Shown in pieces: positions 21,148-63,857 of a stretch of DNA of 64,000 nt (position 1 is the stretch's first letter; each line of letters starts with the position of its first letter). This DNA comes from Ectocarpus siliculosus (lineage: Eukaryota; Sar; Phaeophyceae; Ectocarpales; Ectocarpaceae), in the NCBI GenBank assembly GCA_000310025.1, contig FN649731.1, forward strand, positions 3,231,374 through 3,295,373. The letters are read 5' to 3'. Position numbers and translations under genes: made by a program. The notes below the pieces were generated by a model. That model worked only from the letters and a program-made list of their open reading frames with translations. It had not been told where the DNA came from and made no database searches.

Positions 21148-24100
21148 CCCTTTTTTTTTAACCCCCGGGGGGGGGGAAAATTTTTCCCCCGGGGCCCCCC
21201 CAACCCCGGGGGGCATTTTTCCCCCCCCCTTTTGCCAAAGGGGGGCCCACCCCTTTTTCCCCAAAACATCAAAAAGGGGGGGGGGGGGGGGTGGGGGGAA
21301 ATTCCCCCCCCCGGGTGGGGGGAAAAGGAAAAAAAAAGGGTTCCCCGGGGGGGGGGGGGGAGGAAAAAAAAAAGGGGGGGGCCTTTTCCCCCGGGGCAAA
21401 AACCCCGAAAAAAAAAAAAAAAAAACCCTTTACAGGGGGGGGGGGAGGGCCCAAAACCCCCGGGGGGGGGGATCTTTCCCGGGGGGAAAAACATTTTTGG
21501 CCCNNNNNNNNNNNNNNNNNNNNNNNNNNNNNNNNNNNNNNNNNNNNNNNNNNNNNNNNNNNNNNNNNNNNNNNNNNNNNNNNNNNNNNNNNNNNNNNNN
21601 NNNGGGGCGGGGGGGGGGGGGGGGGGGGGCGTACTCTCATGTTTTGCATACCTCGAGAGGACGGAGAATTGTTCCCACAGGACCGACCGATCATCGATGG
21701 CCAATTGTTCCTTCCTACTTTGCCAGAGGTGGCTCAATCACGTTTTCCCGAATCTATCGATAGTAGGGCTTGCCGAGGTTTGGGGTAAATTCGCAACCCG
21801 TGATTGGTGGAAAAGGGAAAACGAGAGGTTACCAGGGTGCGAGGGGACAGGATAACAGAGGAAGGGGTGCCTTTCTACGCGGTTCAAGATTCGCTGAATG
21901 AAAATATCAATAACCATTTACAGTGGTGGCTGACTGGCCTGAATCTGCTTGCGGGGGGATTCATTCGCGTAGTGCAATCGACTTTAGTCGCTGCGCCGCT
22001 GACCCCGCTTCTTGTGTCACTTCCACCGACATTGATGTTCGGTGTCTTGTTTCTCCACGTACGATGTCAGTGGCGTATGGCAGGTGCTTGGTGCCCGTCG
22101 AGCCTGGCAACCGCGGCGCCCCTCACGAGGCTACGGTGCTAAGGAGCACCGCTAGCGCAGACCGGGAGGGCAGCGAAGGCATCCTTGGCGGCTGCAACTC
22201 CGTGCGGCGAGAGTTTTTTGAGAGACATCGGTGAGAGGGAGAAGCTCCAGGCCCCCGCTATAATTCAGTTATGTTCAACAACCCCAGGGCGGTAGAATGC
22301 AAAGCGCCGCCGCCTGTTGAAACCCTCCCGTCCCGTTCAACCAACCGCAAATCTCAACTGTACGTCACTTTCAATCGCACCGGCTGCGGGTCGAGAATAC
22401 TTTCCAGCAAGAAGAAACAAAGCATATGTACTGCACGTATCTTCTCTACGCTCGAGCTCCAGTCGCGTCAATAGATCGTGGTTCATTGCACGCCCCTTGA
22501 TGACCCCTGGCTTCGGCGCGTCTACGAGGGGTGAACCTGAAATGAACCCTCGTTGGATCCCAAAACAGATGACTTAGAACACTGTCGTGTTCATGTCCGA
22601 AGGTTCTTCCTCTACCTCAAGTAGAGATGCAGTAGCCTCTGGCCATCGCCCCTCATCCTCGTGTCGTGATCTTGTAGTAAAGATATCACGTGACCGACAT
22701 TTGCAAACGCCATACGCCCCGCCCCCCGCCTCTTGCATGTGCACCACTGTGTCGACTTCGATCCGAAGGCACTCAGTAATATTCGTCGGCTTCAAGGACC
22801 ACGTTTCCTTGACGATGGTCACTCTCGACGTGTCGGGGCTTTTGTGTGTGTGGCCCTACAGCGCCGACGCCTTTTCGGGGTTCGGGTGGTACACACCGTC
22901 CAAGGTAATGGAATCACCGCTAGTGAGGGGGTAATTTCTTGCTCTACTTGTACCTTGTTCTGGGAAAACAGCTCGCTCTGAATGTAGATGTACGTTCCGT
23001 TACCTTTCACGAGTGGAACGGAAGGACGGTGTGTAAACGTCACAACGTCTTCTATCACGAAAACGGCGAAGACAACAACTACCACCGTGCTACGAAAAAG
23101 GTGCCGTCTGCATTTCGCAAAAGCAGCGTCGTACAGACGACGTCATGAGGGATATATGCCTTCCATGGTCATGGGTCGACCGTGACACGTCGTAACGGGA
23201 TTCCCCGCTCTGTAGAAACCCTATATCAAGGAAATATTAAGAACCGTACCCCACCCAAGTACCGACACCATTGTGCCAATTGGTGTTGCGCATGTTGGTG
23301 CCGCGACGATAAAGTTTATTGCAGTATCCTGCACAAAACCACAATATTGGGCCTGTGACCTTGACACCGGATAAGGACTAACTTCTGATCAAACTGGCTC
23401 GTTGGTATGTACATCATTGGCTCCCAATGACCAACTACAGGAGGTAGTGGTGGACGTGACGCTTCACTCCTACAGGCTAGAAAGCAACAGAGTAGCCAGG
23501 AGGGGCGAACGCGGCGCCGGCGGTGGAGGCGGCGGGGGCGGCGGTGGACCGGAGTTTATTTTCAACAGAGCGCTTCCTCCGGTACGGACGCTAGTTTTGG
23601 AACTACTCTACAGCCTTCGCGGTGTAGTTTTGCAGGGGCAGCTGAACGAAAAGTACGCTAGTTAAGGAACAGCTGGCTGAAGTGTCAAGGGCAACACAGC
23701 GATACATGGAAGGAAACACGGCCATACAACTGCTTTTCAGAAAGCGCCGCGCTAGCATGAATACCCGAATAAAGCGTTGAAGGAAGCACGGCCATTCATC
23801 ACTGGTTTGGGGCGATCTATTCGCCAGCAGTATGGACCACTCAATGTGGCGTATAATGAACGTCTCGCGAAATGTGTTCGCGTTGCCGCTTCTGCTTCAG
23901 CGGCTGCTGCAGTCCTCGGGTCCTTTTCTGATTATCGTGCGCATAGAATTGTATTGGTCATTGACAACAACCCCCCTGAAAAACATTCCCGGTCGTCCTC
24001 ACCGTCGTGTTCGGTTCAATAAACATCGCCTGGTAGGTATTTTTGTGTTCAAGCCTCATCTTTCGGCGTATATACATGGGGTCCCCCTCGTCTTCTAGCT

Positions 24101-37104: not shown

Positions 37105-38816
37105 GCTTGTGAGGCAGCAGCGGAGGATGTAACCCAGGGGTCAGCGTACAAGTACAACGCTCTACAGGCGACTGCTGTTGTCGCCGCCCGCGTCTCGAGG
37201 GCCAAAGAGACAAGATGATTGCAAGAGTGTGTGCGTGTGTGGGATGTTCTTGCTTGCGCATCGTCCTAGAGATCCGATGATGACGCTTTGTGTCCGGTCC
37301 GGTGGTGTAGTGTACGTGTGTGGCCACAGCGAATTCAAACACAATCGACGAAGACGAATCGGCCAACCGCCATTTCCCCGACGAGCGACAAGCTGATTCG
37401 CCAGCCTGGTGTTAGGATCCTGTGGCCTCCTGCGGTATTGATATGTGTAGCCCTCTCTCTTCACTGCACTTTGCATCGGGGGCAGGGGTGAATTGTACAT
37501 CTCACAGGACGCAGGACGAACTTCTGGTTTACTCTTCTGCGGCAATGCAGACGTCGGCAAAGGGTACAGCAGTACACTTGATCGTCCTCGACCATGTTTC
37601 TCCGCCAATCGTGTCCCTGCCCCTGGGGTAGACAAATACAAGTAACATTACAACATTACTATCTTCGGAAGTACATACATTCTGTAGACATAAACCGTCT
37701 GGGACACACCGTAAGGAAGATGTGCACTCCCAGCGTCTGCGCGTCTTTATTTGGCCCTCATGGATTCCAGCACTTTTTTAAATGCCCCGCCAGGCTACTA
37801 TCTACTACTGCTCCGGTAGAGTTGCCTAACTACCGCTGTGTGCTCCTTCCCTCGCGGGCCGGGCCACACACCCGTCGTCCGCTTTTCCAGCTGGCGCTCT
37901 GCCGCGCAAAGCGGCCTGAAGTCTGCCGGGGTGCGGTTCTCCATATGCGACCCCTTCTCATCTTTTAGCGTTCGTTGTGGTGCCCCCCCCCCCCCAAGAA
38001 AGGAAAAAGTAAAGGCAACCCCCCCGGTGCCCAGGGGCCCCCCCCCGGCCCCCTTTTTCCCTATGGCGACGCCCCCACCTAAGAACTCCTTCCCCAGTGT
38101 TCGAAACACTGGGGGGGTGAAAAAAAGCCAAAACCCCAATTTTCTGGCAACCACCCCCCTGGCAAAAAACGCGGGCAATGCTGGCCCCGGGGNNNNNNNN
38201 NNNNNNNNNNNNNNNNNNNNNNNNNNNNNNNNNNNNNNNNNNNNNNNNNNNNNNNNNNNNNNNNNNNNNNNNNNNNNNNNNNNNNNNNNNNNGTCCGTTT
38301 TTCCAGCGGGCGTTTTGCCGCGCAAAGGGGCCTGAATTTTGCCGGGGTGGGGTTTTCCATATGGGACCCCTTTTCATTTTTTAGCGTTGGTTGGGGTGCC
38401 CCCCCCCCCCTAGGAATGGAAGATGTAAGGGCAACCCCGCGGGTGCCAAGGCGCCGCCCGCGGGCCTCGTTTTCCCATATGGCGACGCCTCCACCTAGGA
38501 ACTCCTTCGCCAGTGTCGGAGACACTGGGGGGCTGAGAGAAGGCAGACGCAGCAGTTTCGTGGCAACGACCCCACTGGCAGAAACGGCGGGCAGTGCTGG
38601 CCCGGGGGCATCGGAGCCTAAGCGAGGTCTGTTCAACGACGGGAGCCCTTGGGTGGGGGGGCGCGCAGAGTCGCCTTCGACGGTGAGCAAGGGGACCAGG
38701 GGGGCGAAACGAGTTTGCGGTTTGCGTGTTGGATTTTCGGTTTTTGTTGCGGTCGCGCGCGGTATAAGACCGCTTAGGTTTGGCAGGCCTTAGATCATAC
38801 CATGAAGAGGTGATAG
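37105..38816. other. Region without a recognised gene, containing a false gap
   Basis: Apart from the duplicated 316-bp segment around the N gap (listed separately), I find no convincing coding exon. The 5' end of the minus-strand 7TM gene and upstream control sequences of both flanking genes may lie here. Confidence 0.45.
37877..38608. other. N gap flanked by two reads of the same 316-bp sequence
   Basis: Positions 37877-38192 and 38293-38608 are both 316 bases long and are the same sequence read twice. Each begins GTCCG(C/T)TTTTCCAG and ends in GCTGGCCC followed by G. The left copy, and the first 100 bases of the right copy, carry homopolymer errors. The 100 N between them therefore represent an overlap the assembler failed to merge, not missing sequence. 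Confidence 0.85.
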
Positions 38817-39365: not shown

Positions 39366-39708
39366 ATGTCTGTTGGCGTGGTGTCGTCACGATGGCCTAA
39401 CACCGCCGCTTGCTGCGTGCGACGAGAAGCGCCGTTCAACCTCGACGCTAGAATTTATCTCCCCGGTGACCCTTGGTTAGAGTTTCCGGAGGTACGACGA
39501 AGCGGTGCCGTCTAGCACCGCGCTTGCGTCGCCTCAGCACTACTGTGGGCTCGTCGTTAGGGTGTCGCCTGTAGACCTGTAGACTGCATACCGAGTCAAA
39601 CACACCCACCTTGTGCACAAACCATGCGAGCTTGCAACCAGAACAACAAGCACCACCACCACCAACACAAACAGCAACACCGACAACAACAATGACAATG
39701 GCACCACC

Positions 39709-39739
<31 letters not shown>

Positions 39740-42700
39740 GAAACAATGACATTGAAAACATCAATGACAACGACACCACCACCAACATCGACAACTCCAA
39801 CAGAAACAACGTTGACAACCACAACAGCAACACCGCCACCATCACCAACAGCAACAACGACAATACAACAGAAACAACAACGTTGAATGAAAAAACAACA
39901 CCACCTTCCTTCTCCACACAGGCGGCGTCCCCTCTGCCGGCGACCCGCGGGGAGACCAGCCACTTCCGACGCGCGGAGGAGCTGTGGAGGAAGGCCTCCA
40001 AGGCCCGTGAGGGATCCCGCCGCCGCACGATGGGCGCGGCGCCTACGCTCGAGCAGCGCATGGCCTGGCGCAGGGAGCAGGAGGAGGAGGAAGCACAGAA
40101 GGACGACGGCGGCGAGGGGGAGGAAGGGAGGAGGAGGCGCAAGGTGCGGTCTCAGCAAGAAGAACGAGAGAACGGCTGCCTCCCCCCCCGTTCTCCTCGT
40201 GTGAACGGAGCAGCCGACACCGCCAAGCCGCTGCCCGCCGAGGGCGGGGTTAGTCCCCGGGCTCCCGGCAAGGGGGGGCTGGGTACCCCCCCTTTGCCGC
40301 CAGGAACCCAAGGAGCCGTTGCCGCGCCCCCCGCGCCTGCTGCTGCTGCTGCTGCTCCCGGGCGCGAAGGAGACGGGGGCGCTTGCAAGCACCTAGAGGG
40401 GGCGCCGGAAGTTCGAAGCCAGGGCGGGGAAGGGGAGGTACTGGATCGGGGGGCGGTACGGGCGAAGGTGAGACGGTTGGCTGCTTGCCCTCTGTGAGTG
40501 ACGGCTTGGTAGGGGGAGGGATGTGGTTTATGAGGCCTTCGTTCTTCCGACAGGTCTAGTCTGTGGTTGGTTTACACTTGCGCATGGGCGTGGTGTTTGG
40601 GCGAGAGCTTGTTGGCCTCTTCCGCTTGTCTATGCGGTTTGTGTGCTTGTTCTTAAGGCCGTTTGCGTTTTCTTTGGGCATGCTGATGTTTTCTAGAAAG
40701 TACCCGTTCGAGATATAGCCTCAGTCGAAAGGGGTGTGTTGAAGTCTTTTCAGTAAATGGATTGAAACCGACTGGAAACTGGGCTTATTTTGAGTTTGTG
40801 TAAGCCTATACACTGAGTTATCAGTGATGCCAGTTGGTGCTAAAAACAAAAGCATCTGTATAGGTGGATACAATCTTGATGTTTTCTGTTAAAGCGGCAT
40901 GACTCGGCGCGGACTCCCGTGCGAGAAGCAGGCATTTTTTGCAGAACGCTCGACCTAGAGGCGCACCAGCTCGCGACATCTTGCTTCCATACTTTTGAGC
41001 TTTGCTCCTCACCCCTCTTGTCTAGTTGCTACCGATTAGATTAGTGAATGTCCGTTGAAGGTGTACATGTAAGCGATGGTGTGGGTGCTGAAGCTTTGCC
41101 ATGACCTTGACCTTCGTCAGGTGGTGGCCATCTACGAGGAACACAACAGAGACAAGCTTCATACGGTGGATGAAACCCTGGATAAGTACGAGGGGAAGTG
41201 GGCCGTCATGCTAAAGGTACCTACCCTTCCGGTGAAGGGCATCGCGCTTGCGTGTTGCAGCCAGAGTGGGGGGAGAGGGTGCCGTGAGATATCGATGGGT
41301 GCTGTTGCGTTGTCGTGGTGGCTTGACTCTACTGTAGGGATGGAGCTCAAACGGATAAAAGAGACTCGTGTGTGGCACTGCCATTGCCTTCCGTGGACTG
41401 GTCAGTTGTCCGCTCCCATGAAGACCTCTCGCTAACTTTGTGCGCTCCCCTTCCCTTGTCTCTTATCGGACACGCCTCTCTTTTCTCTTGTCTCTCTCCC
41501 TCGCGATCGCCCCCTTGCGTCGCCCGTACATCAAAACCGTTTGTTGGTCAGCGATTGGATGAGAAATATGTGTCAGCTACAGGCCTTCCTCCCGCTTCCG
41601 GCAACGGCCCGTTGTGCTTCATGGATATCGAGGTTAGGAAAACGGGCTGTTGGCTTTTTCCTTGTGTTTCCGTTCACCTTGGTTCTGTTGGTTGTGATGT
41701 TTGTTTTGTTTTAGCTCGGTAAAGGCCAAGAGTACCGTTGGCATCGTCGGCGCTTCGGGGCAGCGGGGTTGATCACAGAGTTGACATATTTTTCCCGCCG
41801 CCGAGACATGGTTGATTTGTGCCGTATGTAGTACTGTAGCTGGCGTGGATCGCAAACTTTTTGAAATGTGTTGCGTTGTGTTCAGCTCTCGCTAGCTCGT
41901 TTTTGTTCCGGGTTGGCATTGTCGGCCTTTGTGTCACTGCTGTCGGGGACTCGTTTGTCTGGAGTAGTGTGATACATATCCCGAAGCGAGGCGTGAGGCG
42001 TGTTGTATAGTCGAGGATTATTTTCCGTTAGAGTTCCCGAGGACAATTGTGTTGTCTGTTTTGGCCTCTGAAGCCTGTTGTGCTTCTCACCGCCGTGTCT
42101 GTCTCGTGTTTGTACCTGGCTGCAGGTGGGCGGGGAGGCCGTTGGGAGGTTGGTGTTCCGGCTCTTCGCCGACAAGACCCCCAAGGCTGCGGAGAACTTC
42201 CGCGCGCTCTGCACGGGGGAGAAAGTGAGAGGAGTTCCGTGCGTAAGCTGGTGCCACTGGTCGTGATACCTCTGGGGTGTTTTGAGAACCACGTTTTTCG
42301 ACGACACCTTTTGTTTTTCGTGGATCGCTATCAATAGTACTACACCAAGTGCTGGAGGCATAGGCATTACTGTTCAGGTTTTTGTTGCGTGGGTCGGTAG
42401 TACTACTGAGTGCTCGAGGCCTTGACATATAACTCTTGTTTCCCGTTTCCCGCGTCTGCTCGAAATCTTGGCCGTCTCTCTCGCGCAGGGACGCGGGCTT
42501 CGTTACGAAGGAAGCGCCTTCCACAGGATCATCCCCGGTTTCGTGGTACAGGGAGGCGACTTCACCAGGGGGGACGGCCGTGGGGGAAAGTCCATCTACG
42601 GGGTGGGTGTCAGTGTTGCGGTGGGACTGTACGGTAGCTTCGTTCTCGACGAATGGGTATTTAGTGGGGTGCGAAAGGGGCCTCTAATGGCCAAACATCG

Positions 42701-45700
42701 CATGCATTGAACGAGCTGTGTGCTTGCTGGTTGCACAGCAGGGTAACGTGCCCTTTTTCAAAGAGGTTGGAGCACCATGGCCGAGGAAGATCCTGGTGTG
42801 TAGGCTTCGTCACCGGCCGCCTGTCCCATTCCTTCCCGTATTGCGGCCATTCCTGCCCCTGCCCCTGCTGCTGCCGCTGCTGCTGCTGCTACTGTATTTT
42901 GGCTACCTACCACGAATGTTTAGTACCACTAATCGCGTATCTTGGAATCGATCTATTGAGCGGGGCGGCGAAATCCGCCAGACCACTTGTGTATAGTCCA
43001 CTGATCTTTCAGCCTGCCCCCTTCTGCACTACACATGTCCACTCATGGCAGGACAAGTTCGAGGACGAGCCGTTCATGCGACACCACAAGCTGGGACTGC
43101 TGAGCATGGCCAACAAGGGCGCGAACACCAACAACAGCCAGTTCTTCATCACCCTCAAGGCGAGAACGAGGAAGGAGAAACCCCAACCCTCACCTTAACA
43201 CTGTCCCTTATCCCTTATCCCTCATCCCAGTCCAATAAGCTTAACACTCGTCTCACCCTGCCGTGCGCATTCGCGATTCGCCACACTTGTATGGAGTTTC
43301 CTACCTGCTCTGTGCGTGATCCATCGCTTCGCGCGAAATGTTGTGCCTGTTGGTTGTTGTTGCTTGCTGGCTTTTGCCGTTCTCACCAAAAGGGCATGCG
43401 CTTCTTCGTGGAACGTGAGAGCAAGAACGGCTTTTTTCCCTGAGAGATGGTCGTCGGGCAAGCAAGTGGGCCCTATCTAACTCTACCCCTAACGCTCGCT
43501 TCTTGGCGATGCGTGCCTCGAATGCCGTGGTTGCTCTTTCAAACGTATTGATTGCCCTTCATCTCGGGACTGCCCAGCGCGTTGTTCACGACCCTTTGTG
43601 ACGCAATAATTATTCTGCTCCCGCCCCCCCCCCCCGCCAAATCGTTCTGCTGACGATTTCAGGCTGTTGCCCACCTGGACGGGAAGCACGTGGTGTTTGG
43701 GGAAGTGGAGAGCGGGATTAAGGTGCTAGACCGCATGAAATCGGTGACGCTGCTTGAGCCCAAGAGGGACGGGAAACCGGCGTCGGACCAGCGGGTAAGG
43801 AGAGGTGTCTCATGCTACCCCGTGCTCGACCTGCGCTCACCGTATTTCACACAAGATAACATCCTCACAGAAGAAACCATACCCCCAACAGAAAAAATAC
43901 CACGGCCAGTGAAATTATTCTTGAAGGCCGAAAATGCGTTCACCGAGGGTATGGTCATTTGTGGAATGCGGCAATCTTTCACGTTATTTCAAGTTGTCGT
44001 TGTCACTGTGTTGGCGTTTTTAGATCAAATTGTCGTGGACACGCAAGCCCAATACGGTGGCCGTATGCGCATGCTTTCGTTTCCTATATCGTCGTTGCAG
44101 TGAAATACAGCAGCCAGAGCCCATTTTTTGCTTGAGGATCCCGCTGGGCTCACTACGGCGACGTGGGTGGTTTGAAACTTGACCCTTCCGCTGGCTTCCC
44201 TCTGGTTAATCTAACGCCTTTTTCCCGCTCGTGTTTTCCTTGCCTTGGACCATTCGTTCGTTATCGCTGCCGAACGTATCTAATAGGTGGTAATCTCCCG
44301 CTGCGGGCAGCTCAAGGAGGACGGAACCGAAGTTGAGCGCGCAGCCACCCCAGCTAGTGTCCCGCCGCCCACCGGGGGTATGTTCGCGTCCTCTAGTCCG
44401 GCGACCCCCCTCGCCTCCGCCGCGGTCTTTGGCCGGCCATCGAACCTCGGCACCCCGTCCGCGGCAACGACGGGGTCGAGTTTCTCATCGACAGGCTTCG
44501 GAGGCGCCGCAACTACTCCAGTCTTTGGGGGCGCCGCCGCGAGCTTTGGGAACGCCGCCGCGAGCTTTGGGGGTGCCGCCGCGAGCTTTGGGAACGCCGC
44601 CGCGAGCTTTGGGGGTGCCGCCGCGAACTTTGGGGGCGCGGCCGCAAGCTTTGGGGACGGTACCGTAGGCGGCGGGTCCGGTGGCGGTGGCGGGGGAATC
44701 TTCGGGTCTGGGCCGAAGACCCCGGCGGTTCCGTCGTTCGGCCAAGCTGGCGCTGCCGCTTCCCCGGTGGCTGCTCAAAGCGATAGCAAGAGGACGGGCG
44801 AGGAGGTGGCGGTAAAAGCGAAGCAAAGAGGCGGTGGTCTTCCCGCTCGGCGGTGCGTCCTCTTCGGGGCTCCCCGGCACGCCTCGCGTCCAGTCCGTAG
44901 CGTCTTCGTTCGGTTCCCTGGCGGCTGCTATTGCGTCTGGACCTCCCAACTTCGCGAGCGCGGCGGCGCCGGCCGCCGCCGCCGGTGCTCCCCCAACAGC
45001 CGCCGCGCCTTCCACGAGCGGCGGCGGCGGCGGCGGCAGCAAGGATGGCTTCAGCACCCCCCCCGTCCACAACCGCTACTTTGCGACCCCCCCGCGCGAC
45101 CTCTCCGCGGTGGCGGCTCGGGTGGCCACTCTCACGCCCTCGTCGGACCGGCGGCGGAGCGGCTCCAGCCCGAGGCCCCACGGCGGCGCGGCGGGGGCGG
45201 CGTTCGACCGGCTGGACGACGCGGGCACCGGGTGGGTCGGCCGGGAGGAGTTTGAGGCCCTCGTCGGCAGCGCCGGGCTGCCGTTCGAGACGGAGAAGCA
45301 CGGGCAGGCCCTGCTGAAGCTGTGCGTCCCCCGGCTCCCCCGCGACCGGTTCCTGGAGTGGTACGCGGGCGCGAGGAGGGAGCAGCGAGAGGCGGCGGGC
45401 GCGGCCGGGCCCGCCGGCGAGGCCGCCGTGGGCTCAGGAGGACGACCGCCGCGGTCGAGAAGCGGCAGCGGCAACAGCAGTAGTGCCGTCCCAGCAGCAG
45501 GAAAACCGAAAGCGGCTGCGGTCGATGCGCCGGCGGTGGCCGACCAGGGTGGAAGCGGCGGCGGCGGCGGCGCTGCTGGCGTTGTGCGCGAAACCGGTTC
45601 CGGCGGCACATCCTCGGACAAGGAGGACGATGCCGACGCTGATGCCACTGACGAGAGCGGGGACGAAGAGGAGCGCAGGGAGGAGAAGGCCAAGGCCGAG

Positions 45701-48700
45701 AAGGCTTTCGCGGAGGTCGACGGCGCCGCCAAGGGGTGGCTGGAAGAGAGCCAGTTCGAGGCCCTGATGGAAGCGGTCGGCACCACCTACGCCGTGGAGG
45801 ACCACAAGCCGAAACTGTTGGCGATCTGCACGGCCGGCCGGTTGGAGAGGCAGGCGTTCTTGGCATGGTACATGGACTGGCTGTTCGGCGATGAGGAGTC
45901 ATCGGACGAGGAGGGGGGGGAAGGGGACGAGAGCAGCCCCAACACCGTCGGGCGAGCACCGAAGGACGCCGGGTTTGCTGCTCTGGTGAGGCGCCAGGCG
46001 GGTGGGTGGAAGTGCGCCGCGTGCTTGGTGTCTAACGCCGAGGCGGCTTTGAAGTGCGCGTCGTGCGAGGCCGTAAGGCCGGGGCAAGAGGGTAAGGTGG
46101 CGGCGTCTGGCGTGTTAGGTGGGGCAGGCATCTTTGGAGGGTCGGGCAGCGGGCCTATGGGTGGGTTTACCTTTGGTTCGCCTGTCCCTCCCGTTGCCAA
46201 GACGGCCACGGCGTCTTCAACTGCGGTGGCCAGCAGCAGTGGCGGGGGGTTTTCCTTCGGAGCTCCTTCTGTCGTCGCAGGGGCTACACCGTCACCCGCC
46301 GCCTCGTTGCAGCCTAGCGCGGGGACCAACGCAGCGGGAGGATTTACGTTTGGCGCGCCGGTGACGGCGAAGTCGTCGGCCTCAGCGCCCACCGCAGGAA
46401 CCCCCACCGCTACGATTGCGTCGGCCAGTAAGGCCGAGGTGGAGCTAACAGAATCTCCTGATAACACCGACGGTAGTAGTGACAGCGACGGCGATAGTGG
46501 AGACGAGGAGGAGCGTAAGGAAGAACAGGCCAAGGCGGAGACGGCCTTCGACAAGGTGGACAACGCCGCCAAGGGGTGGGTGGAAGAGAGCCAGTTCGAG
46601 GCCCTGATGGAAGCGGTCGGCACCACCTACGCCGTGGAGGACCACAAGCCGAAGCTGCTGATGGTCTCTACGGACGGGCGGTTGGAGAAGCAGGCGTTCT
46701 TGGCGTGGTACATGGACTGGCTGTTCGGCGATGAGGAGTCATCAGACGAGGAGGGGGAGGTTAAATCCGGCGTGGCCGCTGAGGGATCGAAGATCGCCGG
46801 GTTTGCTGCCCTGGTGAAGAGCCAGGCGGGTGGGTGGAAGTGCGCCGCGTGCTTGGTGTCTAACGCGGAGGCGGCTGTGAAGTGCGTGTCGTGCGAGACG
46901 GTGAGGCCGGGGCAAGAGGGTAAGGTCGGGGCGTCTAGTGCGGTGGGTGGGGCGGGCATCTTGGGAGGGTCGGGCGGCGGCCCCACAGGGGGCTTCACGT
47001 TCGGGGCACCAGTCCCTACCGTTGCCAAGACGGCGACTGCGGGTTCCACTGTCCCGGCTGATAGCGGTGCCGGGGGCTTCTCGTTCGGCGCTCCTTGCGC
47101 CGTGGTAGGGGCTACATCTTCATCCGCCGCTTCGTCGAAGCCTAGCGCGGGGACCAACGCAGCGGGAGGCTTCACGTTTGGTGCGCCGGTGGTGACCGAA
47201 TCGTCGGCCTCAGCGCCCGCAGCAGGACCTTCCGCGGCTACGGTAGCAACAGCCAAGGTCGTAGTGGCCGATAGCTCTGACGACGATGGTGGCAGCGATA
47301 GCGATAGTGGAGACGAGGAGGAGCGCCGGGAAGAGAGAGCCAAGGCGGAGGCGGCCTTCGACAAGGTGGACAACGCCGCCAAGGGGTGGGTGGAAGAGAG
47401 CCAGTTTGAGGCCCTGATGGAAGCAGTCGGCACCACCTACGCCGTGGAGGACCACAAGCCGAAGCTGCTGGCGATCTGCACGGACGGGCGGTTGGAGAAG
47501 CAGGCGTTCTTGGCATGGTACATGGACTGGCTGTTCGGCGATGAGGAGTCATCGGACGAGGAGGGGGAGGTTAAATCCGGCGTGGCCGCTGAGGGATCGA
47601 AGATCGCCGGGTTTGCTGCCCTGGTGAAGAGCCAGGCGGGTGGGTGGAAGTGCGCCGTGTGCTTGGTGTCTAACGCGGAGGCGGCTTTGAAGTGCGTGTC
47701 GTGCGAGACGGTGAGGCCGGGGCAAGAGGGTAAGGTCGGGGCGTCTAGTGCGGTGGGTGGGGCGGGCATCTTGGGAGGGTCGGGCAGCGGGCCCACGGGT
47801 GGCTTCACGTTCGGGTCGCCCGTTGCTCCCGTTGCCAAGACGGCCGCGGCGTCTTCAGCTGCTCCGGCTGGCAGCAGTGGCGGGGGTTTTTCCTTTGGAG
47901 CCCCCTCCCCCGCCCCAGGGACTATACCGTCACCCGCCGCTTCGCTGCAGCCTAGCGCGGGGACCAACGCAGCGGGAGGCTTCACGTTTGGTGCGCCGGT
48001 AAAGGCGGCCTCAGCGGCGGACACAGGAACTGCTACCCCTGCGATAGTACCGGCCGATAAGGCCGAGGTGGCGCCAACAGTAGTGGGCAACAACTCCGAC
48101 GATGATAGTGATGGTGCCAGCGATAGCGATAGTGGAGACGAGGAGGAGCGCAGGGAAGAGAGCGCCAAGGCGGAGGCGGCCTTCGACAAGGTGGACACCG
48201 CCGCCAAGGGGTGGGTGGAAGAGAGCCAGTTCGAGGCCCTGATGGAAGCGGTCGGCACCACCTACGCCGTGGAGGACCATAAGCCGAAGCTGCTGGCGAT
48301 CTGCACGGATGGCCGGTTGGAGAGGCAGGCGTTCCTGACGTGGTACATGGACTGGCTGTTCGGCGATGAGGAGTCATCAGACGAGGAGGGGGAGGTTAAA
48401 TCGAGCGTGGCCGCTGAGGGATCGAAGGACGCCGGGTTTGCTGCCCTGGTGAAGAGCCAGGCGGGTGGGTGGAAGTGCGCCGCGTGCCTGGTGTCTAACG
48501 CGGAGGCGGCTTTGAAGTGCGTGTCGTGCGAGACGGCAAAGCCAGGGGAAGAGGGTAATGTCGGGGCCGGCATCTTGGGAGGTCCCAGCAGCGGGTCTGC
48601 GGGTGGGTTCACCTTCGGAACTCCGTGCAATACCGCTGTGGCGGCGGCGGCCGAGGCGAGTAGGGTGTCTTCCACTACCGCTGTGGCAACAACCGCCGCG

Positions 48701-51700
48701 GGAGGCTTTTCCTTCGGAGTTTCGCCGCCCGCTCAAACCAGCGCAGCTCCCGCCGAGAAGCCGGAGAGTAAGCCTTGTGCTGGCTCGGGGGACACTGGAG
48801 GTGATTCGGCCGGTGGCGCGGGCTTGACAAGCGGCAGCTCGACCGGCGGCCTCACGTTTGGGTCGCTGCCCGGCGCTGCGGCGGATGAGCACGCGGTTGC
48901 GATCAGCTCTGGCTCGTCGGTTGACGTCGGTGGCGGCGGAAGTGATACTGGGAGCGATAGCGGGGACGAGGAGGAGCGCAGGGAGGAGAAGGCCAAGGCC
49001 GAGAAGGCTTTCGCGGAGGTCGACAGCGCCGCCAAGGGGTGGGTGGAAGAGAGCCAGTTTGAGGCCCTGATGGAAGCGGTCGGCACCACCTACGCCGTGG
49101 AGGACCACAAACCGAAGTTGCTGGCGATCTGCACGGACCGGCGGTTAGAGAGACAGGCGTTCTTGGCATGGTACATGGACTGGCTGTTCGGCGATGAGGA
49201 GTCATCGGACGAGGAGGGGGAGGTTAAATCCGGCGTGGCCGCTGAGGGATCGAAGGACGCCGGGTTTGCTGCCCTGGTGAAGAGCCAGGCGGGTGGGTGG
49301 AAGTGCGCCGTGTGCTTGGTGTCTAATGCGGAGGCGGCTTTGAAGTGCGTGTCGTGCGAGACGGTGAGGCCGGGGCAAGAGGGTAAGGTCGGGGCGTCTA
49401 GTGCGGTGGGTGGGGCGGGCATCCTGGGAGGGTCGGGCGGCGGGCCCACGGGTGGCTTCACGTTCGGGTCGCCCGTTGCTCCCGTTGCCAAGACGGCCGC
49501 GGCGTCTTCAACTGCTCCGGCTGGCAGCGGTGCCGGGGGTTTTTCCTTCGGAGCTCCCTCGCCTGCCTCAGGGGCGACACCGTCACCCGCCCCCTCGTCG
49601 AAGCCTAGCGCGGGGACCAACGCAGCGGGAGGATTCACGTTTGGTGCGCCGGTGGCGGCCAAGTCGTCAGCCTCAGCCACCGACATAGCGCCTGCTCCTG
49701 GCGTGGTGTCCGTCGATACGGTCGAGGGCGAGCCCGCACTTGTGGCCGACGGCTCGGACGTCGACAGCGATAATGATAGTGAGGACGAGGAGGAGCGCAG
49801 GGAGGAGAGGGCCAAGGCCGAGAAGGCTTTCACAGAGGTCGACAGCGCCGCCAAGGGGTGGGTGGAAGAGGGCCAGTTCGAGGCCCTGATGGAAGCGGTC
49901 GGCACCACCTACGCCGTCGAGGACCACAAGCCGAAACTGCTGGCCATCTGCACGGATGGCCGGTTGGAGAGGCAGTCGTTCTTAGCGTGGTACATGGACT
50001 GGCTGTTCGGTGATGAGGAGTCATCGGACGACGAATGGGGAGAAGGGGACGAGAGCAGCCCCAACGCAGTCGGACGTGCGCCGAAGGACGCCGGGTTTGC
50101 GTCTCTGGTGAAGAGCCAAGCAGGTGGGTGGAAGTGCGCCGCGTGCTTGGTGTCTAACGCCGAGGCGGCTTTGAAGTGCGCGTCGTGCGAGACGGTGAGG
50201 CCGGGGCGAGAGGGTAAGGTGGCGGCGTCTGGCGTGTTGGGTGGGGCGGGCATCCTGGGAGGGTCCAGCGGCGCGTCCGGAGGAGGCGGGGGTTTCGTGT
50301 TCGGGGCACCGGTTCCGGGTGCGGCTTCGGCGGCGCCAGCCGCGGCGACATCTTCATCGTCCACAGAGAACAGGGACGAACGAGAGGTCGCAGCCAAGGC
50401 GCCCCCTACGGGGTGCTCAGTGCCGGCCGAGGGGCCCCGCGGGAGACGAAATGGGGGGGGTGAGAGTCCGTTCACGTTTGGATCCCCCACGAGGCGTTTC
50501 ACCTTTACCTCGCCGACGCGATCTGGGGCACCCGTCTCAGGCGGAGCGGCGGCGGCGGCGGCGGCGACCGCAGGCTTGGCTAGCAAGGGAGCAGACCCTC
50601 CCGCCGGTGAGGGAGGTGCTGCCGGGGGCTTCACGTCCCCGACGCCGCGGGTCGTCGCGACGGCGCCAAGCCGAGACGGTGGCGGCGTTGGCGGCGACGG
50701 CGGCGGGAGCCACTTCTTCGGCCCGGGCAGCAGGGGCGAGGTGGATGCGCAGGGCGAGGGTGTTCCGGACGCGGGAAGCAGCCCCCGGGCGGGAGGTAAG
50801 GCGAATTGTTTTTGGAAATTTACCAAGGATGGTGGGATTGAGTCGGTGTTTTTGTGCTACCGGGCCAAGACGAGTGGAGTGGCGTGGTGTTTCCCGCGAG
50901 GCGATTTTTTCGGGAGGGATATGCGGCTCTTTGCGATTGAGCGGGGGGAGGTGATTGTCGACTTTTTTGGGCGTTCAACGAATGCTTGCAGTGCTTGTGA
51001 TCATGTACGAGAGCGTCTTGTCACAATCCATAGCTTTGCTTTTTTTGTTCGATCCGTCCTGTACTTCGGCCTTGTTCACGATTTACCCCTACCTTGTTGG
51101 TTGTATTACCTATCCACTTGAAGAATCCCGGTCCGTGGCTACACGGCAGACCTCCCCCGCGGCCCATTTGTCTCGCTTTTCATTGCCAGAATAGTGCGGT
51201 GGTTCTTGCCCCGAAGTGTAGATGCTGATTTTCTACGAACGTATTTCGATACATACAAGAAAACCGTCTGGCAGTCTAGCCGCTAGACAACTCTCTACCA
51301 TGTAGACCACCTGGGCGATGGGCCCCCACCTGTTTCTCCTCCCCATTACACAAAACAGTACATCTAAAGCCCCCCCGCCCTCCCCCGGTGTTTGCCATCG
51401 GGGTTGGGTTTTCGTCGCGTGGCAACGACGTTGTAAAACAAGTCCCCCCCTCGGTGTTTGCCATCGGGATTGGGTTTTCGTCGCTTGGCAACGATGTGGT
51501 AAAACAAGCCAATACACTTCGTGAACCCGGCAACCAGGTTACCGTTTTTTTTCTTTTACCTCTTTTTTTTTGGCGGTAACGTAATGGTGGTCGAGTAGAT
51601 CATGTTGTGCGGGGTGGAGAACCCTCACTCCGCGCAAGGGGGATGATCGCGCCACGTTGTGTTAAAATGGTCAAGCATCCTCGAGGCAGTTACTTACACA

Positions 51701-52289
51701 GTGCTTATAACTGTCTCTGGAAGTGAAAGCACCAGAAAATAAATTAAGTCATACGCAGCTGTCATCCGTACGCAAGGAAGTAAGCACAAGATGCCGAACA
51801 CCCCTAGCAGGATGCAGCGCACCCTTCATGCGACTCCCCGAATAACTCATGGCGCTTCGCGCTTGGTGATGTGAGAGCCTGGTCCGGTGAGAACCCGGCG
51901 TGCTCCGTCCCGGCTTTGTAGGGATGCGCGAGGTCAATGGTCTAACGACTACGGCATGCACGACTATGAGTACACCCCCCCCGCGCGCCCTACGCGCAGG
52001 AATACTTTCGCCGAGGGCTTTGGAAAACCTCACGCCTAGGTCTCGGGCCCGCAGGCGGGCGAGCGCGTCGGTGAAGCTCCGGAGGGGATCAATCGGGCCG
52101 GCGGCTGGGCAGCACAAGACGGCGTCAATCGGAGGGCTGGGCGGCGGTAACGCAGCTATTGTTTCTGTCGGCGGCGGCGCAGGCGCAGGCGCAGGCGCAG
52201 GCGCAAGCGCCGACCACGAGGAGACTGGGACGAAAGAGGAGGAGGAGGACGGGCCGTCCCTGTTCGGCGGAGAGCCCAAGCTCTACTGA
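39366..52289 (+). CDS. Cyclophilin - RanBP2-type zinc finger - FG repeat fusion, nucleoporin-like (Nup358/Nup153-like parts)
   Basis: Eleven exons agree in phase: 39366-39491, 39922-40467, 41121-41216, 41552-41632, 42126-42224, 42489-42602, 43052-43159, 43663-43794, 44287-44811, 44894-50795 and 52000-52289. They give about 2,672 residues. In order: a charged N-terminal region; a helical [15 protein letters not shown] motif (about 225-270); a full cyclophilin domain (about 277-443, [27 protein letters not shown]) with Arg55, Phe60, Gln63, Phe113 and His126 equivalents but Val at 61 and His at Trp121; FG-rich sequence; one divergent EF-like unit; then six tandem units, each a degenerate EF-hand-like module ([17 protein letters not shown]), an acidic DEESSDEE patch, a zinc finger W-x-C-x2-C-x3-N-x6-C-x2-C with Cys-Leu-Val-Ser-Asn, and FTFG/FSFG motifs. 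CLV-x-N is the RanGDP-contact signature of Nup153/Nup358 fingers. A role at the nuclear pore is inferred. The start ATG is the least certain part. Confidence 0.82.
39612..39895 (+). repeat. CAA/ACC-rich microsatellite in the first intron
   Basis: Nearly 300 bases of imperfect CAA, ACC and AAC trinucleotides, ending about 25 bases before the acceptor at 39921. The Thr- or Asn-rich open frame through it is not thought to be translated, because a good acceptor (CCACACAG) starts the following exon in phase. Confidence 0.8.
43160..43662 (+). other. GC-AG intron inside the cyclophilin domain
   Basis: The exon ends ITLK with AAG|gcgaga and the next begins AVAHLDGK after TTTCAG. The join restores the normal spacing between the QFFIT and LDGKHVVFG motifs of cyclophilins. 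No GT donor at or near this point keeps the frame. The reading is therefore a non-canonical GC donor. Confidence 0.7.
44812..44893 (+). other. Proposed 82-base intron between FG-rich exons
   Basis: The cyclophilin/FG frame and the long zinc-finger frame differ by one base. A donor GTAAAA at 44812 and acceptor GTCCAG ending at 44893 are both phase 0 and join EEVA to SVASSFGS. An indel in the assembly is the alternative. Confidence 0.55.
45655..50230 (+). repeat. Six tandem ~825-bp coding repeats (EF-like module + zinc finger + FG)
   Basis: The zinc-finger Trp codons lie at 46007, 46835, 47645, 48470, 49298 and 50129, a period of 810-831 bases. The modules for the EF-like segment and finger are almost identical at DNA level between units, for example the stretch encoding [20 protein letters not shown]. 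The Ser/Gly/Ala-rich FG linkers differ more. Units 3 and 5 share the [20 protein letters not shown] stretch and the following linker almost base for base. This points to recent unequal crossing-over or gene conversion. Confidence 0.92.
50796..51999 (+). other. Last intron of the nucleoporin-like gene
   Basis: The donor GTAAGG and acceptor GCGCAG join a one-base remainder to a two-base start, making a Gly codon. The final exon has an Arg/Ser-rich stretch, an acidic patch and a last FG motif ([10 protein letters not shown], then stop). Without splicing the frame would run on to 51121 with unrelated hydrophobic sequence. Confidence 0.7.
51387..51509. repeat. Two tandem copies of a ~66-bp unit
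   Basis: GGTGTTTGCCATCGG(G/A) followed by TTGGGTTTTCGTCGC occurs at 51387 and again at 51453 with few differences. It lies within the last intron of the nucleoporin-like gene. Confidence 0.85.
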
Positions 52290-57086: not shown

Positions 57087-58716
57087 ATGAATCCCGAAGG
57101 TGAGAGGGGTCGGGTTAGCTTGGGGCTGCAACCGAAGAGAAGGGGCTTTCAAAACGGACCTGCTATTTGGGGGAAATAGAGACGGGTGTTCCTACCTCCT
57201 CCATCAATGCGTACACGAACACCGTATGCACATTTGTGTTCACAGGAAGGATGTCAGGCATAAACAGGTACCCCAGGGCACCGTTGTGTTTGATGACCAA
57301 GGGCTGCTGTCGGCACTTGTCCGGAGGCTGTGCTCTTCTTACTGTGATATAACGACCAGTCCCGAAGCTAGAATCAAGAAACCTCTACAAGGCTCACAAC
57401 GCGTTTCATTTGCGTTCCTACTTCTGCCATTCACTATCTCGGAGAGAGCAAGTGCCTGCACGCTTTTATAGTCGCATTGAACCAGGCTTGCGATGGACGA
57501 GAGTTGGTATGCGTCTACGATGGAGCTACAGCTGGCGTCGCTGGAGTTTTGTGAGGCGTGCCGAAGTTTCCCGACCTCGGACGTGTACGTCAATTCGGGC
57601 ACGCCTCCTAGCTTGTGGTCTCATCGCGAATCATTCACGACGCCCAACAGGCGACGAGAGAGTTGCATCTCGAGTCGCGTGCCGGCTGTGCCGGTTTTTG
57701 GTTTGACGTGGACGTTGCCAATGGAGTCCCTGCCGCAGTTTTCTACCATTGAGTCATGGTCAGGGTCAGCATGTCGACGACTGAAAGGCAACATGTCGGC
57801 AGCAAGCCTGCGACCTCTGGTGTGGCCTCCAACACTCAGACGGCTGGAAATTGCTTCGGATACGCCGGTATGAACTGTGACATGGCCGGCCTCGCTGCAG
57901 CAGCTGTCATATGGATCTCGCTTCAACCAGCCCATTGCCGAAGTCGCGTGGCCAGCCTCCCTGCAGTAGCTATCGTTTGGATACTCCTTCAACCAGCCCA
58001 TCGCCGAAACCGTGTGGCCGGCCTCCCTGCAGATGGTGTCTTTCGGGTGTTCTTTCAATCAGCGCTTCGCCAATATCGTGTGGCCGGGCTCCCTTCAGCA
58101 GATATCGTTTGGGGATAAGTTCAACCAACCGATCGTCGGCGTCGTGTGGGCGGCTTCCCTGCAGCAACTATCGTTTGGATCTACCTTCAACCGGTTCATC
58201 GCCGACGTCGCGTGGCCGAACTCCCTGCAACAGTTATCGTTCGGATATCGCTTCAACCGGCCCATCAACGAAGTCGTGTGGCCGACCTCCCTGCAGCAGC
58301 TGTCATTTGGAGTTACATTCAACCAGCCAATCGTCGGTACCGTGTGGCCGGCCTACCTGCAGCATCTATCCTTTGGGGACAACTTCAACCAGCCCATTGT
58401 CGGAGTCGTGTGGCCGGCCTCCCTGCAGCAACTATCCTTTGGAAACAGCTTTATCCAGCCCATCGTCGGAACCGCGTGGCCAGTCTGCCTGCATCGACTG
58501 TCGTTTGGGTATTTCTTCAACCAACCCGTCGTGGGAGTTGTGTGGCCGGCCTTCCTGCAGCAGTTGTCGTTCTGGCGTTCATTCAACCTTCCCATAGGCG
58601 GAGTCGTGTGGCCGGCCTCCTTACGAAGTGTGACTCGTGGCAGACCTGCAAAGTGTGCTAAGATAGATGGCTGTCGGAGCATGCTCTCCAGTTGTGCAGG
58701 GGTCCAAGGTACATGA
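57087..58716 (+). pseudogene. FNIP-like repeat protein, disrupted copy
   Basis: This is a paralogue of the gene at 60504-63857. The 13-base first exon (ATG AAT CCC GAA G, then GTGAGAGG) at 57087-57099 is conserved. The body at about 57430-58716 has the shared N-terminal region (WYAST-ELQL, ISSRVPA) and eleven 22-residue repeats of the form W-P-x-S-L-x-x-L-S-F-G-x-x-F-N-x-P-I, ending SLRSVTRG. Damage relative to the intact copy: the acceptor AG at the start of exon 2 is changed, four extra bases lie near 57496-57500, TGA is at 57871-57873, and TAG replaces a Gln codon at 57967-57969. A shorter product from ATG 57493 or from inside the repeats cannot be excluded. FNIP repeats are leucine-rich-repeat-like units best known from Dictyostelium. 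Confidence 0.75.
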
Positions 58717-60503: not shown

Positions 60504-63500
60504 ATGACTACCAAAGGTGAGAGGGGGTAGGGTTGGGATGAGGCTGCAACGAAAGACTGCGGACAAATGAAACCACAGGGGAACACACGTGGTGGTACGT
60601 AGATGGTGTGCTTGTTTTGCCGCGTTCGTGATATCAGTCCAGCAGTCCAGCAAGGCTCCCCCTTTGGGCGTGAGTTTCAGCCCCACATCAAAGAGGGAGC
60701 CAAAACATGAATGCCAAAGCCTCTGCGGGTGGCCCAAGGCAACAACTATGAATTATTGTACACGAAACACCCGCTGCTGCGGCTCCCAGTAGCGCGTACC
60801 CACTTACCCGACCGAACTTGTCCATGTCCTTTTCTCGGAACATTCCTTGGGTAGCCGCGGCTCGTGTACAACAATCTAGCTTTTCACCGCACAGCAACCT
60901 AGCGCTAACAATGCATAGCACCCTAGCCCTTAACCCCTCTTCTGCCGCGGCTTAGATTTACACGTAGAGAGCACGGCAGATAGTGGCACGTGATGGGTTT
61001 GGCCAATCAGAGTAGACCTGCGGGGGTCCACTTCCTGAATCGAAAACCTTTGGGCCGTCAAAATCACATCCCGAGACACTCGCACTTCCCGTATTCTTCT
61101 GTCGTTTGTCCATTCTTGTGTACCCTTCCGACGGTCTTGCTGAGTTGGTCTATGTTCGTGTGCGGTCCTCAACTACCCCAACACCGACCTCGGCAGCCTA
61201 CAGCTTGAAGTGACGGCCAAGTTTAGCCCGATCGCCGGTAGACTTTTGATCGCACGTTGTATAAAGTTCGAACGCGCAGGCGTTGTCAAGTGTGAATCTG
61301 TTGGTGACCGGCCTCCGTCTAACTAGCCTGAGGCGAAGGAGATGGGCCACCTGTGGTTTGCCGCCTGTGGTGCGTCGCACCACTGCAAACAATCAAGCAC
61401 CGCGGTAGAGGCATTTGCGCGCCGGTGATTTTCGCCGGGCACTCAGCCTAGGGTGTGGGTGTGCCGCGACGTACAGCAAAAGAGTGTGTGGCTGTGAGTG
61501 TTTTTGTGAGGAAGAGAGAGAGCGTCTGTCAATCAAAACACGCCGTTAATCGAAGCACGCTCCACTGGCGACGTCACAGCGGTATCCGGAAAACGCGGGG
61601 AGTAGTCAAGAGGCACCGTGTGTGGTGCATGTGGCACGGCACTGGCCGAAGGAAAACACTGAAGAGCAGCCCTGTATTCTGTAGACAGAAATACAGCGAT
61701 ACCCGTCCTCCAGCGATCAAGTAGCCGCGGCAACCGTCCGCGGCATGAGGCATTTGCGAAAATTCTCCCAAATGCTTCTGCTCAATCCACTAACTGTCAC
61801 ACAGAGGACCCTCAGAGGACGTTTGTAAGTAGTTTGGGGCTTCGCATCGCCCTTCTCTCTGGTACTGCTACTGTCTACCGCCTTTGATGTTTGAACCCAA
61901 GCGTTTCACACGTTTTGTCGGTAGCAAGGGTAGGGAAACATGTGGGAGCGTGGTCGATGAGGAGAAAAAAGTAGAATCACAAAATACCTGAAGGCGTTTT
62001 GCCGGGGCCAGTATTGAAATCAAGGCGAGAATCATTGCTTCCCCAGCAGAGACAGAATTGCTGCTTTCGAACTTGGCAGAATTGCTGCTGTCGAACTTGA
62101 CTCTTGCCCAAGGAATAAATACCGATCGAGCCGAGACACCTTTCCAGAACTTTTCGATTGTCCACGTTCTTCCTGGAAAAAATTCGCTAGCACACCAGTC
62201 AGCAACAACATCTTCTTCGACAGTTTAGACACAGGCCATTGTTGACGGTGCAGAGGCACGAGCAGAGAGTAGTGAGTCGCGCTTGGGGACCCAGCATCGC
62301 CGGTAATGAACGGCGTGATAGGCTTACAATTGATGTTTCTGTTTCAAGATTAGCGGTTTCAATCGACGTGAAGTCAGTTGCACGCACAACACGCACAAGG
62401 CTCACTTCATCAACGCTGTAGCCGGGGAATCAGGTGATTTCTCTTGCAACAGTCCACCGAATGGTACGTTAGCCGGTCCCAACTGTAATTGTGCTCTGAG
62501 GAGGGTGTCCAACACGAACAGACACGACCAGGCGACCAGCCACAGGATATCGCTGTGTTTGATTATCAAGGGCTGTTATTGCCCATTTTCTGGTGGCCGT
62601 GATCTTCTTCGCATCGACTGGGAGAATCTCCCCCCCTCTCGTTCATTTTATTGGTTCTGTCTATCACCCACCCAGTCGCGCAATCAACACTTCTTCCAAG
62701 GCCCACAAGCCATTTTTCGTTTGCGTTGCTACGTATACGTGTGTGTGTATCTGCCCTTTACTGTCTCAGGCAGGAGCGGATGCTTGGACGCCTTCGTCGT
62801 TGCCTTGAACCAGGCTTGCGATGGGCGTTGGTATGCATCTACGCTGGAGCTACAGCTTGTGTCCCTGGCGCTTTGCGGGGCGTGCAGAAGTGTCCCGACC
62901 TTGCACATGCGAGTCAATCGGCAAACGCCCCCTCGTTTGTGGCCTCTTTGCACGCCACACACCACACCCAACAAGAGCACTCCAGAGGTTCGCATCTCGA
63001 GTCGTGTGCCGGCTATTGAGCCCTTCGGATTGACGTTTGCACTTCCGATGGATTTTCTGATGCAAAGTTCAACCCTTGAGCTGGGGTCAGGGTCAGAATG
63101 TGGGCAGCTAACGGAACCTTCATCTGCAGCATTTGGCTATGAATCGCTGGTTTGGCCTCAAAGGCTCACATCGCTGGTATTCGATTCGAATATGCCTGTG
63201 AACAAGGCGTCGTGGCCTGCCTCCCTGCATCGGCTATCGTTCGGAACTGCCTTCAACCGGCCCATTGCCGAAGTCGTGTGGCCTGCCTCCCTGCAGCAGC
63301 TGTCATTTGGAGTTAATTTCAACCATTCCATCGCCAACGTCGAGTGGCCTGCCTCCCTGAAGCGCCTATCGTTTGGCTCTGCCTTCAACGGGCCCATCGC
63401 CGAAGTCGTGTGGCCTGCCTCCTTGCAGCAGCTGTCGTTTGGATCTCGCTTCAACCAGATCATCACCGAAGTCATGTGGCCGGCCTTCCTGCAGCAGCTC

Positions 63501-63857
63501 TCATTTGGGGATAGTTTCAACCAGCCTATCGACGGAACCGTGTGGCCGACCTCCCTGCAGCAGCTATCGTTTGGTGATGAGTTCGACCACCCTATCGCCA
63601 AAGTCGTGTGGCCGGCCTCCCTGCGCCAGCTATCGTTTGGGCGCGAATTCAACCAACCCATCGTCGGAGTGGTGTGGCCGGCCTCCCTGCGCCAGCTATC
63701 GTTTGGGCGCGAATTCAACCAACCCATCGTCGGAGTGGTGTGGCCGGCCTTCCTGCAGCAGCTATCGTTTGGGCGCAACTTTCGCCAACCTATCGTCGGA
63801 GTGGTATGGTCGGCCACCTTACGAAGTGTGACTCGTGGAGGGTTTAGGCTGCTGTGA
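60504..63857 (+). CDS. FNIP-like repeat protein, apparently intact
   Basis: Exon 1 is only 13 bases (60504-60516, MTTK and the first base of Gly, donor GTGAGAGG). Exon 2 is 62770-63857 after a CTGTCTCAG acceptor, and the junction phase is exact. The product is 366 residues. It begins with a domain of about 150 residues (GCLDAFVVALNQ, WYASTLELQL, a Cys-x2-Cys-like ALCGACRS, ISSRVPAIEPFGLTF). Nine clear 22-residue repeats follow (W-P-A-S-L-x-Q-L-S-F-G-x-x-F-N-x-P-I-x-x-V-V), flanked by a degenerate unit on each side, ending VTRGGFRLL. The repeats match FNIP-type leucine-rich-repeat-like units, which usually form a binding solenoid. The partner is unknown. Exon 2 alone has no in-frame ATG before the middle of the N-terminal domain, which supports the use of exon 1. 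Confidence 0.7.
63210..63815 (+). repeat. 66-bp tandem repeats encoding FNIP-like units
   Basis: Nine 66-bp units keep the frame. Units 7 and 8 (about 63606-63737) are identical over their full length, which shows a very recent duplication of a single unit. Confidence 0.9.

Follow-up and report, generated by a model that had tools for sequence, protein, structure and literature searches.

A 64,000-nucleotide stretch of the Ectocarpus siliculosus genome (contig FN649731.1, positions 3,231,374 to 3,295,373; the window hereafter) contains a plus-strand chain of exons in which a cyclophilin is followed by phenylalanine-glycine (FG) repeats and by six zinc fingers of the Nup153/Nup358 class. This combination would most simply be explained by one gene, and with moderate confidence we read that gene as encoding a lineage-specific giant FG nucleoporin, composed of Nup153-type finger units, EF-hand pairs and a cyclophilin, which would be convergent with Nup358. 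A wider proposal is put forward more tentatively, as possible rather than probable: a Nup358-like nucleoporin would have arisen independently in an algal lineage, where a Nup153-type Ran-finger/FxFG unit was amplified along with an EF-hand pair and became fused to a cyclophilin.

Ten exons were modelled on the plus strand between 39.4 and 50.8 kb; joined, they encode 2,576 residues, free of stops if a frame change at 44.8 kb is taken as an intron of 82 nucleotides (nt). The encoded protein would be about 2,500 residues long or longer, and a start at an ATG of exon 2 would make it approximately 80 residues shorter than the model. All nine introns between exons 1 and 10 are in phase 0; seven are bounded by GT-AG, one by GC-AG (43160), and one is the uncertain 82-nt stretch, the others measuring 264-1128 nt with a GC content of 0.49-0.57. 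There are no runs of N inside the gene, the closest gap being at 38193-38292. Open frames and splice signals are the evidence for the two terminal exons (39366-39491 and 51922-52289) and for the start codon; 11 acceptors fit the last exon, in which no Pfam family exceeded its cut-off. An initial annotation of the window had proposed one phase-consistent exon chain: the phase-0 introns and the passage from cyclophilin to FG repeats within exon 9 bear this out, whereas the frame change near 44.8 kb does not. The parts of the model are as follows.

39366-39491 (+): tentative first coding exon, opening with the ATG at 39366; the frame is open, the donor (gtacga) is in phase 0 and the coding score is weak (0.16 per codon)
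39922-40467 (+): exon 2, a charged, low-complexity N-terminal region with two ATGs in frame (40030 and 40060) as alternative starts; preceded by acceptor ccacacag and followed by donor gtgaga, phase 0; no Pfam family at E<=1
41121-41632 (+): exons 3-4 (41121-41216, 41552-41632), phase 0; a module of ~40 residues, then the start of the cyclophilin
42126-43794 (+): exons 5-8 (42126-42224, 42489-42602, 43052-43159, 43663-43794), cyclophilin body; Pfam Pro_isomerase 9.6e-45, CypA chains from 1e-55
44287-44811 (+): exon 9, a single open frame with the last cyclophilin strand (VVISRCGQL) and then, uninterrupted, FG repeats (SFG/NFG)
44812-44893 (+): change of frame, through either an 82-nt candidate intron in phase 0 (gtaaaa..gtccag) or an indel of one base close to where this stretch begins
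44894-50795 (+): exon 10, 1967 open codons; FG-rich region, seven EF-hand-like modules, six RanBP2-type fingers and FxFG linkers; Zn_ribbon_RanBP in six stretches, 3.7e-43
51922-52289 (+): tentative last exon, acceptor ending tttgtag, entered in phase 1, stop at 52289; open frame and phase only, coding score weak (0.13 per codon)

The presumed first intron was seen to contain simple repeats rich in CAA/ACC (window 39640-39900).

As initially predicted, a full cyclophilin lies on the N-terminal side of the protein: it runs from 41552 (exon 4) through exons 5-8 into the start of exon 9, its exons precede those of the FG and finger regions, and Pro_isomerase covers model residues 279-441. When it was compared with the PDB, CypA chains were the best matches (191.6 bits), and the best RanBP2 chain (177.5 bits) came behind CypA, Cyp40 and several others; by this comparison the window cyclophilin is without special affinity to that of Nup358. 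Of twelve CypA positions compared, nine are identical (R55, F60, Q63, A101, N102, Q111, F113, L122 and H126), and isomerase activity is considered likely. Within the genome no nearest cyclophilin stood out, 16 of 17 cyclophilin regions being matched piecewise at 34-75% identity and the 17th (L048) matching nothing. NCBIfam returned two bacterial cyclophilin models, with scores far under their cut-offs.

The module of ~40 residues ahead of the cyclophilin (window 41121-41632) follows the pattern Y-x-x-H-N ... I/L-L-x-K/Q-Y-x-G-x-E ... L-E/D-x-K-Y. It recurs weakly (E 0.03-0.08) on the minus strand of L031 near 1500-1640 (contig C16) and on the plus strand of L033 near 1500 (contig C54); the L031 copy reads FYREHNPDKLVGGDIDGILEKYAGREETLFAKLEKKYG. 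The window copy matched no Pfam family and nothing credible in the PDB.

The sequence past the cyclophilin had been described as FG-rich, and counts confirm it: 37 FG motifs occur in 2133 residues, where 2000 shuffles of the residues gave 13.7 on average and 26 at most, and 16 FxFG motifs, where the shuffles averaged 0.58 and never exceeded 5. Six of the 37 are WLFG motifs within EF-like modules. The Pfam FG-repeat model gave no match genome-wide and none in the controls either, so that its silence in the genome is uninformative. Since the end of the cyclophilin and the FG repeats share one open frame in exon 9, the cyclophilin-FG fusion is independent of splice assumptions.

Exon 10 encodes six fingers that all read W-K-C-A-x-C-L-V-S-N, in agreement with the Trp-x-Cys-x2-Cys-Leu-Val-x-Asn type first noted. 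An EF-like module beside each finger had also been claimed; seven such modules were found, six of them paired with fingers and one, at 45200, diverged and solitary. The periods from unit to unit are 840, 810, 825, 828 and 819 nt, all five being multiples of 3.

45158-45400 (+): first, diverged EF-hand-like module, finger-free; 41% identity to a unit module, E 2.1e-9
45662-46105 (+): unit 1, EF-hand-like module and finger (W at 46007)
46502-46933 (+): unit 2, EF-hand-like module and finger (W at 46835)
47312-47743 (+): unit 3, EF-hand-like module and finger (W at 47645); the unit modelled with AlphaFold2
48137-48568 (+): unit 4, EF-hand-like module and finger (W at 48470)
48965-49396 (+): unit 5, EF-hand-like module and finger (W at 49298)
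49784-50227 (+): unit 6, EF-hand-like module and finger (W at 50129)
45908-45970, 46748-46798 and 50030-50092: examples of EF-finger spacers, in units 1, 2 and 6, respectively

The spacers between EF-like module and finger are of one type in units 1 and 6 and of another (EVKSxVAAEGSKxA) in units 2-5; this difference suggests an internal amplification, with the inner units looking as if copied between the outer two.

In fingers of this family, a Leu-Val dipeptide past the second Cys marks the Ran-binding class, and Thr-Phe the ubiquitin binders. When all PDB chains were searched with a single finger, 40 distinct sequences were matched, and the 23 best of them were Nup358/RanBP2 or Nup153 fingers; the remaining matches were mainly YAF2, RYBP, TAB2/3, RNF31, ZRANB1 and RBM5, plus two weaker Nup153 fingers. 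A passage in PMC11825100 states that Nup358 and Nup153 fingers take part in Ran binding, and a figure legend in PMC13242641 describes four Nup153 fingers able to bind Ran(GDP) at the nuclear basket. By analogy, we infer that the window protein may bind RanGDP and be located at the pore.

The genome searched comprises 189 Mb in 492 contigs, and at least 18 RanBP2-type finger matches were found in it: six in this gene, two on contig C17 and ten elsewhere. The CLV-x-N sequence is present in eight of the 18, those of this gene and of C17, while the ten others read CQF, CGN, CTF, CTL, CTY or CKH; three fingers adjoining these are also devoid of CLV. The C17 pair is found in a Nup153-like open reading frame (ORF):

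L034:3911-5932, contig C17 near 5.485 Mb (-): FG ORF with two CLV-x-N fingers

This ORF has 674 codons and ten FxFG motifs, as counted by eye, and the finger is the one Pfam family matched in it; in it and in a 650-codon ORF upstream, which perhaps belongs to the same gene, a Pfam scan found no cyclophilin or EF-hand family. Its fingers are 45-50% identical to those of the window gene. Behind all eight CLV-x-N fingers, GI[LF]GG follows after 13-20 residues and FxFG after 26-35. GI[LF]GG is absent elsewhere in the C17 ORF and the window model, and its frequency in shuffled C17 linkers is 0.0002, a figure that flatters the motif because it was chosen by eye before counting. A profile built from the window and C17 fingers gave 42 rows against the PDB, the top 22 being Nup358 or Nup153. 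We take the finger units of the two genes as related by common descent, judging from these resemblances. As the C17 fingers share the Leu-Val class residues, the preceding GF and the GI[LF]GG/FxFG spacing, the repeat unit appears to be better described as Nup153-type than as Nup358-type; the Nup153/Nup358 class of the fingers, as first noted, is retained. A finger-only search of viral contigs yielded 17 pattern matches and two contigs (L060 and L061), set aside because we read the ORFs on them as resembling phage head genes that include a short zinc ribbon.

The EF-like modules display the paired helix-loop-helix fold of EF-hands. Measured by the canonical calcium-ligand rule for EF-hand loops, their first loop has neither an acidic nor a polar ligand at positions 3 and 5, nor Glu or Asp at position 12; the pairs are probably calcium-free modules for protein binding or spacing. 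Nine Pfam families besides the finger were matched on exon 10. Five of them (EF-hand_7, SWAP70 EF-hand, EF-hand_6, Ints3_N and Collar) exceeded their curated cut-offs only when summed over the repeats, with no stretch passing singly. The EF-hand matches among them lend the EF-like modules weak support; Ints3_N, Collar, RNase_H and the other exon 10 matches were dismissed as repeat effects. With one unit as query, Pfam returned the finger and SWAP70 EF-hand at E 0.084, and nothing else.

Several points weigh against a single nucleoporin gene. No Pfam nucleoporin family was matched in the window gene or in the two C17 ORFs; basket nucleoporins are described as poorly conserved in a passage of PMC13242641. 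In the AlphaFold2 model of unit 3 the finger part has a predicted local distance difference test score (pLDDT) <50, and none of 299 Foldseek matches in the PDB reached E<=0.001. Searched by tblastn, the EF-hand and finger unit had no relative in viral contigs (286 pattern matches) or prokaryote genomes (225), places where none was expected. Three of the twelve CypA positions are changed (M61V, A103K and W121H). The pooled Nei-Gojobori ratio of nonsynonymous to synonymous substitution is lowest in the EF module (0.18), followed by the finger (0.31), the FG linker (0.41) and the acidic EF-finger spacer (0.92); these values derive from 15 pairs (10 for the linker) that are non-independent, with gene conversion among the units being likely. 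Finally, the frame switch at ~44.8 kb between exons 9 and 10 is the weak link of the chain.

The exon 9 frame is open until a stop at 45253, and the finger ORF lies in a different frame, its preceding stop being at 44813. Such an arrangement would suit two adjacent genes, a cyclophilin with an FG tail ending at 45253 and a Nup153-like finger gene starting near 44.8 kb. We consider this improbable: the first ATG of exon 10 is only at 45767, within the EF module of unit 1, so that exon 10 is not an independent gene start and requires an upstream exon; FG repeats are present already in exon 9; and the codon score, for which parts of the gene served as training data, prefers the exon-9 frame to ~44.85 kb and the exon-10 frame from ~44.81 kb, crossing between frames at ~44.80-44.85 kb with no clear non-coding gap. 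The frame can be restored by 198 GT/GC-AG pairs (donors at 44600-44949, acceptors to 45099), and the 44812-44893 intron is therefore not singled out. This 82-nt stretch has a GC content of 0.68, is weakly coding in the downstream frame and is shorter than the other modelled introns; for these reasons, and given the gapless codon score, an indel of one base, be it an assembly error or a true feature of the organism, seems to us somewhat more likely than an intron. A disabling mutation, by which the gene would now be a pseudogene or encode a truncated cyclophilin-FG protein, gains something from the somewhat better fit of a one-base indel to the coding scores. We nevertheless regard it as very unlikely, with 1967 open codons beyond the site and the repeated domains constrained among units (though this constraint could be older than the mutation, were that recent); the change of frame would be accounted for equally by a short intron or an error in the assembly.

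A protein of this kind might also act elsewhere than at the pore, with fingers that bind RNA or ubiquitin, as RanBP2-type fingers of other proteins do. We think it rather unlikely: all six window fingers carry Leu-Val, and Nup153/Nup358 fingers scored above those of TAB2, RNF31 and ZRANB1 in both PDB searches and above RBM5 in the single-finger search, a few weaker Nup153 fingers ranking among or under these. Least probable of all is a true Nup358/RanBP2 orthologue, rearranged by descent. Both proteins have a cyclophilin, FG motifs and Ran-class fingers in a cluster, and table 1 of a 2005 survey enters Nup358 homologues as likely for fungi and for green plants and as putative for Conosa, with none in diatoms or alveolates, so that the animal-only view has not been unanimous (PMC1257468). 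Later papers are more restrictive: the tables of Neumann et al. confine Nup358 to opisthokonts, and show a candidate for Nup153 in chromalveolates (PMC2951903), and passages in PMC4758718 and PMC11825100 term Nup358 metazoan-specific. The absence of a Ran-binding domain had been noted initially, and a hidden Markov model search with Pfam, run on model residues 1-516, on exon 10 and on the last exon as tentatively placed (93 residues from the FG-rich part of exon 9 lay outside it), likewise found no Ran_BP1 at E<=1; the one Ran_BP1 locus found by a six-frame search of the genome is on another contig, C4. Pfam matched no TPR family in the modelled N-terminus, where upstream exons could be missing. 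With neither domain detected, the gene was not filed as Nup358. In addition, its cyclophilin stands at the opposite end of the protein and is not closest to that of RanBP2, and the finger context fits the Nup153-like ORF. The independent assembly first proposed is supported.

If the window gene encodes the convergent FG nucleoporin that we prefer, its FG and FxFG motifs would, by homology, bind transport carriers in the pore, FxFG being the motif type used by NTF2, the Ran-GDP importer. The finger array could dock several Ran-GDP molecules at the pore, as is said of the four Nup153 fingers at the basket, and so feed Ran recharging, and the cyclophilin could isomerise or chaperone a proline-containing client there. 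Historically, a Nup153-like gene of this lineage would have been the source from which the finger unit was copied; the copy would then have been coupled with an EF-hand pair, multiplied to six and fused to a cyclophilin. A prolyl isomerase tethered to a Ran-GDP docking array at the pore would then have arisen at least twice, and the Nup358 cyclophilin, whose normal task is to our knowledge not settled, would probably be no accident of the animal lineage. If a cyclophilin-finger-FG protein was assembled separately a second time, this would suggest a shared isomerase task at the pore and offer a second test system. The two genes of this genome also show that fingers of the Nup153 class occur beyond animals, which makes Ran-GDP docking by them testable as an older trait.

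Downstream of the gene, two ORFs with FNIP repeats were observed at 57970-58713 (+; Pfam 4.5e-37) and 62334-63854 (+; 6.1e-40), with six stretches each; among the eight long ORFs of the window scanned with Pfam, a subset, these two alone gave a convincing family. The window has two gaps of 100 N (21504-21603 and 38193-38292), the second lying beside homopolymer-rich, low-quality-looking sequence. Elsewhere in the genome, 87 matches to light-harvesting proteins were seen, one of them reaching 326.5 bits over 156 residues against PDB 9ygv chain 17, 'FCP17', which fits an alga with fucoxanthin-chlorophyll proteins. Twenty of these matches share a score of 7.0e-35 on C92, C232, C488, C11 and C18, ten of them on C92; the equal scores suggest recent amplification or unresolved copies.

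Among the matches listed in a search of open-licence titles and abstract openings, no cyclophilin/finger nucleoporin outside animals was found, which does not show that none has been published. The window cyclophilin resembles the multi-domain cyclophilins of oomycetes and apicomplexans in being fused to other domains. The partners given for oomycetes in section 2.1 of PMC7168621 are FKBP, TPR, GRX, RRM, WD40, U-box and LRR, plus 23 additional ones left unnamed there, among which a finger could therefore be hidden; 'RanBP' and 'zinc finger' are absent from its main text, as are 'RanBP2' and 'zinc finger' from that of PMC2713222. Trypanosome TbNup149 is a nucleoporin with repeated zinc-finger units and some FG motifs, but the passages on it in PMC4758718 and PMC11825100 make no mention of a cyclophilin. 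Like Nup153 and the C17 ORF, the window protein has Ran-class CLV-x-N fingers with GF before and FxFG repeats after them, and it shares the GI[LF]GG spacing with C17, which differs in having two fingers to its six. From animal Nup358/RanBP2 it is set apart by a cyclophilin on the N-terminal side, before the FG and finger exons instead of C-terminal, by the EF-hand-like pairs beside its fingers, and by the Nup153-like context of these fingers. The two have in common a cyclophilin, clustered Ran-class zinc fingers, FG motifs and giant size, and by analogy the window gene may work like Nup358.

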